This document shows positions 51,274 through 53,003 of a stretch of DNA of 64,000 nt, in pieces. Under the pieces are notes generated by a model. It worked only from the letters and a program-made list of their open reading frames with translations, made no database searches and was not told the DNA's origin. The DNA comes from Woeseia oceani (GTDB lineage: Bacteria > Pseudomonadota > Gammaproteobacteria > Steroidobacterales > Woeseiaceae): contig NZ_CP016268.1 in assembly GCF_001677435.1 (NCBI RefSeq), forward strand, positions 2,345,001 to 2,409,000, read 5' to 3'. How positions within the stretch are numbered: position 1 is the stretch's first letter; the number at the start of each line of letters is the position of its first letter. The position numbers and the translations under genes are program-made.

Positions 51274-51906
51274 CTAGTAGCCGGAATCGGCGAGTACAGC
51301 TTCGTAGTTGGCCAGCTCGTGTTGGTGATCGGCTCGTTCTTCGATCAGATCGACAATTTCCGCCTCCAGCCTGCCGGCCTCCTCCGACAGTTCTTTCAGG
51401 TCAGCCAGTAGCAGTATCCGGTTCTCGGTCGTTGTCTCCCGACTGATAAGTGCGGCCTCGGTATCGCGTATCTGATTCCGTACCCGTTCCAGCTCCGCTT
51501 CACGGGAGCGAATGGAACTGTTGGCCGAGTTCACGTTGCTACGCAATGTATAAAGGTGCTGACCGCGGCGATACGCATCCAGAAAATAAGGTTCCTGATC
51601 GCTCGCACAAACACCATAGTATTGCCCACCGCCGGAGCCAAGGCTGAAACCTCTGGACGGCTGGCAGAATTCCCGCAATCCTTCGTCGCGGCCGCTGCGG
51701 TAGTCATCGAGGTCAGGCGCATAGCCATGCTTGGCACATGCTTTGCGATGCTGACCCAGCCTGTCCGCTGTGTAGCCACGCGCACCGTCTTCATAGCCGA
51801 TGGCTCGCCAGTCACTAACGGCACATTCGTCGGCGCTCATGGATGCACAGGCACTCATGAGCGCCATGCTGACGACAAGTGTCGAACTAATAAGAATTCG
51901 CTGCAT
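51274..51906 (-). CDS. DUF2799 lipoprotein with C-terminal coiled coil
   Basis: 210 residues. Signal MQRILISSTLVVSMALMSAC with lipobox MSAC; then a DUF2799 domain (about 25-125: CAVSDWRAIGYEDGARG, LGQHRKACAKHGYAPDLDDYRSGRDEGLREFC, DAYRRGQHLY) and a long charged coiled coil (about 130-205). The ATG at 51906 follows GGAG by 8 bases. Function unknown. It is divergent from the NERD-like gene, and a CRP-like site lies about 84 bases upstream of its start. Confidence 0.86.
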   Translation of the reverse strand: MQRILISSTLVVSMALMSACASMSADECAVSDWRAIGYEDGARGYTADRLGQHRKACAKHGYAPDLDDYRSGRDEGLREFCQPSRGFSLGSGGGQYYGVCASDQEPYFLDAYRRGQHLYTLRSNVNSANSSIRSREAELERVRNQIRDTEAALISRETTTENRILLLADLKELSEEAGRLEAEIVDLIEERADHQHELANYEAVLADSGY

Positions 51907-51982
51907 AACCCAATCTCCATCGACGCTCGCGTCGCACAATCTGGCGTATTGATCCAACATACAAGTCGATCCCGGCAGCCAC

Positions 51983-51998
51983 CGTGACCTGACTCACA
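51983..51998 (-). promoter_or_regulatory. CRP-like binding site 1 (upstream of the DUF2799 gene)
   Basis: On the plus strand the site is CGTGA-N6-TCACA, one mismatch to the CRP consensus TGTGA-N6-TCACA. Its centre (51990.5) is 41.5 bases from the start predicted from a -10 TATGTT (51961-51956, minus strand). That is the class II position, where CRP overlaps the -35 box. Confidence 0.6.
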
Positions 51999-52046
51999 GA
52001 TAGTTTCACCGTCGCCGGTACCACCATAGGCGAGCATTCCGGTCAC

Positions 52047-52062
52047 TGTGACCTGCATCACA
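52047..52062 (+). promoter_or_regulatory. CRP-like binding site 2 (upstream of the NERD-like gene)
   Basis: TGTGACCTGCATCACA matches both CRP half-sites perfectly. The centre (52054.5) is about 42.5 bases before the start predicted from a -10-like TACTCT (52085-52090), again class II. It is 64 bases from site 1, about six helical turns, on the same face of the DNA. Confidence 0.7.
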
Positions 52063-52124
52063 GTTAGCCCGTCGTGCCCACCGCTACTCTGTCTGCAGTT
52101 TTCCCGTGACGAGCAACGACTGGC

Positions 52125-53003
52125 ATGAACCTGGCTGTCATCAGTTCCACCTCCGCCCTGGCGATGGCAGGTACGCTGGTATTCACGGCACTACTGATCC
52201 TGGGACGAAAACTGCCTTGGATACTCCGACGGCGGACCCGGTTCCACAGTTCGGCGACCAACAACCCGGCTGAAAACCTGCGAACCGAATGGGAGCGTCT
52301 TGGCCAACGCCGATCACTGTATCTGACCCCGATCCTGTTCTTTATCGTATGCGCCCTAACCTTACTGTTAGCTGAACCGACCAGCTCCGGTTTCAACCTG
52401 GCCGGCTGGCAACAGGTTGGTGTGCTCGCGATAGTTGGCATAGCGCTGGCGGGGGCGCTATATCGTGGCATTCAGTATTCACTGCGACGACAACAATTGC
52501 AGTTCAAGATCGAGGCGAGCCAGACCATAGGCCACGCATTGCGTCAGATCACGGCCAACCACAATCGTACTTTTCACGACGTTCCCTGCGCATTGGGTAT
52601 CGTCGATCATGTGCTAGTCGGAATACACGGCATCTACGCCATCAAAGTCATTGCGCGCCGCGCAGGCAAGAGCAACCTGCTGACACTCAGTGAGCAAACA
52701 CTGGATTTCGCGGACGGCCGTTATTCTGTGCCACTGGCAGAAACGCGCAAGATTGTTGATCGCTTTGCCCGTGAATGCGGCAAGGTCGTCGGGCATGAGG
52801 TGCACGTACGATTGGTTGTCGCTGTGCCCGGCTGGGAAATCAATACTCAATCAGATGACAACATTTTGATCACGAATGAACGCAACCTGGCAATGCTTAC
52901 CGGCTGGAAAGATCAAAGAGACCATTTGCTGAATGAGGATGCCGAAGCATTGCAACAATACCTCGACGAACGTTGCGCCCGATCCGCCGTTCCCGGCGCA
53001 TAG
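52125..53003 (+). CDS. Membrane protein with degenerate NERD-like domain
   Basis: 292 residues. Three membrane segments (about 8-26, 64-83, 98-114), then a cytoplasmic domain (about 128-260) resembling NERD (nuclease-related): QTIGHALRQI, then IVDHVLVGIHGIYAIKVIARR at 159-179. Canonical NERD has IDH...G-[VI]-[FY]-x-I-E-x-K; D161 is kept, but the E and K of the ExK catalytic pair appear as K174 and I176. If the alignment is right, nuclease activity is lost. A GTGACGAGC upstream is a weak ribosome site. A perfect CRP-type site precedes it. Confidence 0.65.
   Translation: MNLAVISSTSALAMAGTLVFTALLILGRKLPWILRRRTRFHSSATNNPAENLRTEWERLGQRRSLYLTPILFFIVCALTLLLAEPTSSGFNLAGWQQVGVLAIVGIALAGALYRGIQYSLRRQQLQFKIEASQTIGHALRQITANHNRTFHDVPCALGIVDHVLVGIHGIYAIKVIARRAGKSNLLTLSEQTLDFADGRYSVPLAETRKIVDRFARECGKVVGHEVHVRLVVAVPGWEINTQSDDNILITNERNLAMLTGWKDQRDHLLNEDAEALQQYLDERCARSAVPGA

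Follow-up and report, generated by a model that had tools for sequence, protein, structure and literature searches.

Does one intergenic region of Woeseia oceani carry two divergent promoters, each activated by its own dimer of the cAMP receptor protein (CRP)? The question was raised by a first-pass annotation of a 64,000-nucleotide stretch of contig NZ_CP016268.1 (the window), which pointed out two CRP-type palindromes, each at the class II distance from a -10-like hexamer, in the gap between a DUF2799 lipoprotein gene (transcribed leftward) and a NERD-like gene (transcribed rightward). The annotation regarded this coincidence as unlikely by chance and as a tie of both genes to cAMP control.

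The intergenic region and its two genes

The window sequence bears out both CRP-type sites, 64 bp apart, and on each side a -10-like hexamer at the class II distance, with offsets of 41.5 and 42.5 bp between the site centre and the predicted start (Table 1). Both palindromes are located within the 218 bp that separate the two genes. The hexamers TATGTT and TACTCT are weak, and a scan of positions 51850-52200 found neither a sigma-70 promoter with both hexamers nor a terminator-like site. The predicted 5' untranslated regions comprise 43 nt for DUF2799 and 28 nt for the NERD-like gene. For DUF2799, we consider the ATG at 51906 as the start, and not the beginning of the open reading frame at 51960, because the latter is upstream of the predicted transcript start.

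Table 1. Positions of the CRP-type sites, -10-like hexamers and genes in the window
Feature	Position	Strand	Description
CRP-type site 1, DUF2799-facing	51983..51998	-	CGTGACCTGACTCACA on the plus strand, CGTGA-N6-TCACA, centre 51990.5
-10 hexamer TATGTT, DUF2799 promoter	51956..51961	-	predicted start 51949; site 1 at -41.5
DUF2799 lipoprotein gene	51274..51906	-	PF10973; lipobox MSAC; likely start ATG 51906-51904
CRP-type site 2, NERD-facing	52047..52062	+	TGTGACCTGCATCACA, TGTGA-N6-TCACA, centre 52054.5
-10 hexamer TACTCT, NERD-like promoter	52085..52090	+	predicted start 52097; site 2 at -42.5
NERD-like membrane protein gene	52125..53003	+	292 aa; Pfam NERD match, predicted structure

The leftward gene product matches PF10973 with an E value of 2.1e-22, scored on the longer open reading frame 51274-51960, and a lipobox-like match is present in 63 of 66 DUF2799 orthologues. 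The best of five structural models reached a mean pLDDT of 89 (range 70 to 89) and has two long C-terminal helices (105-154 and 160-208). Foldseek returned no match to this model at E <= 0.001, and a literature search on DUF2799 found nothing. The rightward gene product falls just under the Pfam NERD cut-off (E 0.0011, 20 bits versus 22.1), and 16 of 16 family members match this profile at E <= 1, the best with 1.1e-6. Its model, with a mean pLDDT of 76, shows three long N-terminal helices, the first two of low confidence, followed by an alpha/beta NERD-like domain. Foldseek gave only weak matches (best E 0.0075), including SfsA, AF1548, and an archaeal Holliday junction resolvase, some of which we take to be PD-(D/E)XK-type nucleases. 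PDB sequence searches with both gene products yielded nothing credible.

The number of motifs in the window does not, by itself, speak against chance. We counted three matches with at most one mismatch versus 1.54 expected in shuffled sequences, and 19 of 100 shuffles contained three or more. The complete genome (4.06 Mb) is modestly enriched, with 77 sites at no more than one mismatch versus 48 for a reversed control pattern. Nine of its sites are exact (L029-L037). In three of these (L031, L032, and L035), one side shows a TANNNT placed at the class II offset, whereas approximately 0.17 would be expected from the TANNNT frequency of the window, 0.0046 for each position and strand. L035 is the locus that holds site 2 itself. 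The sites L031:1501-1516 and L032:1501-1516 are further exact TGTGA-N6-TCACA sequences of this type, and a 220-aa protein with a signal-peptide-like start adjoins the one in L031. The same genome harbours another close pair of CRP-type sites, each with one mismatch and 39 bp apart, at G000:C1:1342940-1342994. The claim that the arrangement is unlikely by chance holds through its conservation in place across orthologous loci, described below.

Conservation of the sites and of the class II distance

A first search revealed NERD matches in 23 of 60 genomes, that of the window included. After orientation of the loci, all 18 of L003-L020, one from the own genome and the others from 17 relatives, showed the NERD-facing site. 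L021, L022, and L023 have a one-mismatch site at a greater distance, and none was found in L024 and L025, whose match covers part of the NERD query only. L021 and L022 belong to the neighbouring family f9; each carries a single one-mismatch site with TANNNT at 30.5, and their DUF2799 genes reside on other contigs, with no site there. A search of a named genome collection yielded 73 NERD loci under the labels Woeseiaceae, Woeseia, Gammaproteobacteria, Proteobacteria, Chromatiales, and, in one case, Desulfobulbaceae. Six loci were set aside, two without upstream DNA and four as partial or distant NERD homologues (L142, L143, L145, and L147), for which neither a DUF2799 neighbour nor a site at no more than one mismatch was found. 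The scored set (n = 68) consisted of the other 67 of the 73 fetched loci and the window.

The first-pass annotation had made its reading depend on conservation of the two sites in orthologous intergenic regions, and this check came out in its favour. All 68 scored loci have the NERD-facing site (59 exact, nine with one mismatch); its DUF2799-facing counterpart was found in 42 of 68 (three exact, 37 with one mismatch, two with two mismatches). The latter site was absent from the other 26 loci, for example, L085, L089, and L095. Elsewhere in the 67 loci, the background amounted to eight sites at no more than one mismatch in 412,864 bases, that is, 0.0039 per 200 bp. A divergent DUF2799 gene is present in 66 of 67 loci; the exception, L084, has just 221 bp of upstream sequence. 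Since the sites were picked by pattern, the invariance of the half-site letters is partly built in, whereas the -10 test described below is free of this effect. On a NERD tree of 69 rows, calculated with a quick method, the one-site state accounts for four changes, at least three of which are forced by well-supported branches; this count cannot tell gain from loss. In one two-site locus, L099, the NERD reading frame hits a stop after 91 residues.

Class II geometry was scored as a TANNNT starting 29.5 or 30.5 bp from the site centre, with the other two-position windows serving as controls. On the NERD side, 66 of 68 loci had the hexamer in place, compared with a mean of 0.42 and a maximum of 2 in 48 control windows. 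The DUF2799 side gave 39 of 42 (control mean 0.42, maximum 3, 48 windows). When four-position windows were used, the counts were 67 on the NERD side and 39 on the DUF2799 side versus control means of 0.88 and 0.81, respectively. TANNNT was missing from its place in L077 and L078 on the NERD side and in L078, L131, and L138 on the DUF2799 side. Representatives with less than 60% NERD identity retained both the site and the -10 in 14 of 14 cases on the NERD side; on the DUF2799 side, the site was found in 11 of 14 and the -10 in 9 of these 11. On both sides, the mean column identity was 0.32 in the spacer between site and hexamer and 0.27 downstream, and base composition alone would give 0.25-0.30. 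The surrounding DNA is therefore nearly saturated, and the motifs are conspicuous against it.

The best match to TTGACA at a spacing of 16-18 did not exceed two of six positions in 64 of 68 loci on the NERD side and in 34 of 42 on the DUF2799 side. The -10 is of the extended type (TGn) in 19 of 42 loci on the DUF2799 side and in 0 of 68 on the NERD side. Both promoters thus have the features of class II, with a CRP site approximately 41.5 bp from the predicted start and a -35 that is absent or replaced. In the 26 one-site loci, the TANNNT offsets towards DUF2799 showed no peak, the most frequent one being found in three of 26. A single CRP site serving both promoters does not fit the window or the 42 of 68 loci that hold two.

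The spacing between the two sites is less constant. It measured 61, 64, 71, 72 (six loci), 78, 80 (two), 81 (15), 82 (14), and 83 bp, with 81-82 bp in most loci and 64 bp in the window only. Of the spacings whose retention in related genomes the first-pass annotation had proposed to check, the distance from site to -10 is kept (66/68 and 39/42), but the site-to-site distance of 64 bp is not. The description as "about six helical turns" is correct for the window, where 64 bp corresponds to 6.1 turns at 10.5 bp, but does not extend to the relatives with their 61-83 bp.

Several loci deviate from this arrangement. The same-genus genome G001 (89% complete) gave no NERD match, and its single site is displaced and lacks a class II -10 in the direction of DUF2799. 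Seven DUF2799 loci of the family are devoid of an intact divergent NERD gene. Six of these seven retain the DUF2799-facing site, four of the six together with its -10, and the NERD-facing site is retained in three of seven (L055, L058, and L062), which keep both CRP sites and have lost the NERD-side -10 in all three cases. Among seven DUF2799 loci outside the family (L045, L046, L048, L064, L068, L072, and L074), five showed no site; L074 carries an exact site with no -10 in place, and L072 a one-mismatch site with TANNNT at 31.5. A second DUF2799 copy is present in G029.

The candidate regulator and competing readings

The Crp HTH family (PF00325) matches two proteins encoded in the own genome, a CRP/Vfr orthologue and an FNR-like protein whose N-terminus contains a cysteine cluster. 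Three further open frames contain cNMP-binding domains. The CRP/Vfr orthologue (L001:1000-1647; 215 aa) matches E. coli CRP (catabolite gene activator chain) with an E value of 1e-78 and Vfr with 3.7e-77; the adjoining gene is, judging from its translation, presumably coq7-like. Alignment with E. coli CRP revealed an identical AR1 stretch, DAMTHPDGMQ, and the exchanges H19R, H21R, and K101R in AR2, which keep the positive charge. A glutamate occupies the position of Lys52 of E. coli CRP, and R180, E181, and R185 of the recognition helix are retained. We assume that the residue numbering and the roles of AR1, AR2, AR3, and the recognition helix apply to the orthologue. In that case, the glutamate at the Lys52 position should expose AR3 and, together with arginine for His19 and His21, presumably predicts strong class II activation. 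According to this alignment and the assumed roles, the genome encodes a CRP with the activating regions and the recognition helix that belong to class II activation. Two class III cyclase domains represent a putative cAMP source; a class I adenylate cyclase was not found in the own genome.

On the strength of the conserved sites and class II offsets, we consider it highly likely that the intergenic region comprises two divergent class II promoters activated by cAMP-CRP, one for each gene. A CRP dimer centred at 51990.5 would replace the -35 of the leftward DUF2799 promoter (-10 TATGTT, start at approximately 51949), and a second dimer at 52054.5 would take this role at the NERD-like promoter, which points rightward (-10 TACTCT, start at approximately 52097). 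With cAMP supplied by a class III cyclase, the CRP/Vfr orthologue would make contact with RNA polymerase at each of the two promoters, and both genes would therefore be expected to rise together with cAMP. We infer the binding, the transcription starts, the activation, the cyclase activity, and the cAMP signal. As a reading, the proposed tie of two envelope genes to cAMP control is supported by the same conserved sites and offsets.

A joint action of the two dimers seems rather unlikely to us. Both promoters would then be of class III, with their own site at about -42 and the site of the other gene, at about -106 in the window or -123 in most relatives, as an upstream helper, and neither gene would be regulated independently. 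The spacings do cluster roughly one helical turn apart (61-64, 71-72, and 80-83 bp), but they range from 61 to 83 bp and include one value of 78, and 26 of 68 loci possess the NERD-facing site without the DUF2799-facing one. The three loci that retain the NERD-facing site without an intact NERD gene, its -10 being lost, are the best hint that the NERD-side dimer may also help the DUF2799 promoter, although these NERD losses may be recent. Much less probable is repression of one or both genes by CRP covering the promoter. The sites do cover the -35 region, and the DUF2799-facing site of the relatives additionally overlaps a second -10-like TAT; however, the poor -35 match combined with a class II offset on both sides fits promoters in need of an activator, and a repressor site need not hold a 1-bp tolerance to a weak -10.

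We give slightly less credit still to the use of the sites by another member of the CRP/FNR family. Candidates exist in the own genome, namely, the FNR-like protein with its cysteine cluster and the three frames with cNMP-binding domains. Yet the half-sites TGTGA/TCACA with N6 are unlike the FNR consensus, TTGAT-N4-ATCAA, and an FNR-like regulator was rejected on this site sequence. Moreover, the Crp HTH family finds two genes only, of which the Vfr-like one keeps R180, E181, and R185. It is hardly credible that the inverted repeats form RNA hairpins or arose as chance palindromes and are no protein sites at all. The motif count of a single window is near chance, and the window alone does not exclude chance palindromes; it is the conservation, far over the local background, that excludes them. 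RNA hairpins or terminators are unlikely, as the sites are upstream of the predicted starts and the interval 51850-52200 contains no terminator-like site. A hairpin preserved by compensating changes would also depart from the fixed pattern, whereas a match in all ten letters is seen for 59 of the 68 NERD-facing sites, an agreement that is partly built in by the pattern search.

Two divergent class II promoters, as favoured here, would resemble the galP1-type promoters of E. coli, which have a CRP site centred at -41.5 that replaces the -35 (PMC6301791; PMC5449483). The window differs in that two such promoters, with predicted starts, are placed back to back with one site each and have DUF2799 and NERD-like genes as targets. 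In H. influenzae, CRP controls the divergent siaPT and nan units from one intergenic region, as predicted for the window; there, one CRP operator and SiaR serve both units from -59 to -80 relative to each start (PMC2946308). In the window, by contrast, the two promoters have one site apiece, placed at the class II distance, and no known partner regulator. The divergent rhaSR-rhaBAD operons of E. coli, as portrayed in the same paper (PMC2946308), likewise contain several CRP sites, but the separate regulators RhaR and RhaS act on them. Class III promoters such as acsP2 share with the window the availability of more than one CRP site per promoter (PMC5449483); here, the two sites may or may not act jointly, and their spacing is not fixed. 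Literature searches on CRP with divergent class II, class III, or paired-site promoters, on Vfr class II activation, and on a Woeseia cAMP receptor protein gave nothing on this locus among the matches listed.

A direct repeat in relatives and the meaning of the locus

Read towards DUF2799, the direct repeat TTCAG-N6-TTCAG is located between the two CRP sites in 29 of 42 two-site loci (0-1 mismatches; for example, L088, L096, and L133). It occurs with 0-1 mismatches in 24 of 26 one-site loci as well (for example, L089 and L119), and single-base shuffles gave approximately 0.1 loci in each set. The repeat is absent from the window. Its distance to CRP site 1 is identical in 29 of 29 two-site loci (39 by index), independent of the site-to-site spacing. 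In all 29, a TA follows the beginning of the second repeat at 16-17 bases and runs into CRP site 1 as TATnTGTGA. The one-site loci have largely kept the TAT (T 0.88, A 0.88, T 0.79; n = 24). Genome-wide, the exact pattern TTCAG-N6-TTCAG-N11-TAT was found at most once per g10 genome (six of eight have one), twice in G017 (g12), and not at all in G000, the genome of the window, and G009. With the exact pattern, no wider regulon of the repeat was seen in the genomes searched, and a literature search on the repeat gave no obvious regulator among the matches listed.

The simplest reading of the repeat is a second, CRP-independent DUF2799 promoter, probably served by a direct-repeat activator of the OmpR/PhoB kind, whose -10 would be covered by CRP site 1. 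We tentatively extend this to a possible switch: in much of the family, two alternative DUF2799 promoters might be fused at one CRP site, where cAMP-CRP would shut the upstream, repeat-driven promoter (-10 in TATnTGTGA) and open the downstream class II promoter. One-site lineages would use the repeat promoter only, and the genome of the window would represent the CRP-only form. The relatives resemble the switching between galP1 and galP2 in that their second DUF2799 -10-like element begins in an overlap with CRP site 1. They differ by the TTCAG-N6-TTCAG that precedes this element, and the window does so by having no repeat.

The orthologue group is, as inferred from the record names, probably the Woeseiaceae, a widespread family of marine sediments. 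For this group, the two divergent class II promoters proposed here would tie two uncharacterised envelope-associated genes to cAMP, and their geometry is so precise that both transcription starts can be predicted to approximately one base. The DUF2799-facing site, present in 42 and absent from 26 loci, versus the NERD-facing site in 68 of 68, provides a natural series for the rewiring of a divergent promoter pair. Given that the sites and the site-to-promoter distances are largely retained in the relatives, cAMP very probably switches on both genes, by a mechanism that is otherwise well known.
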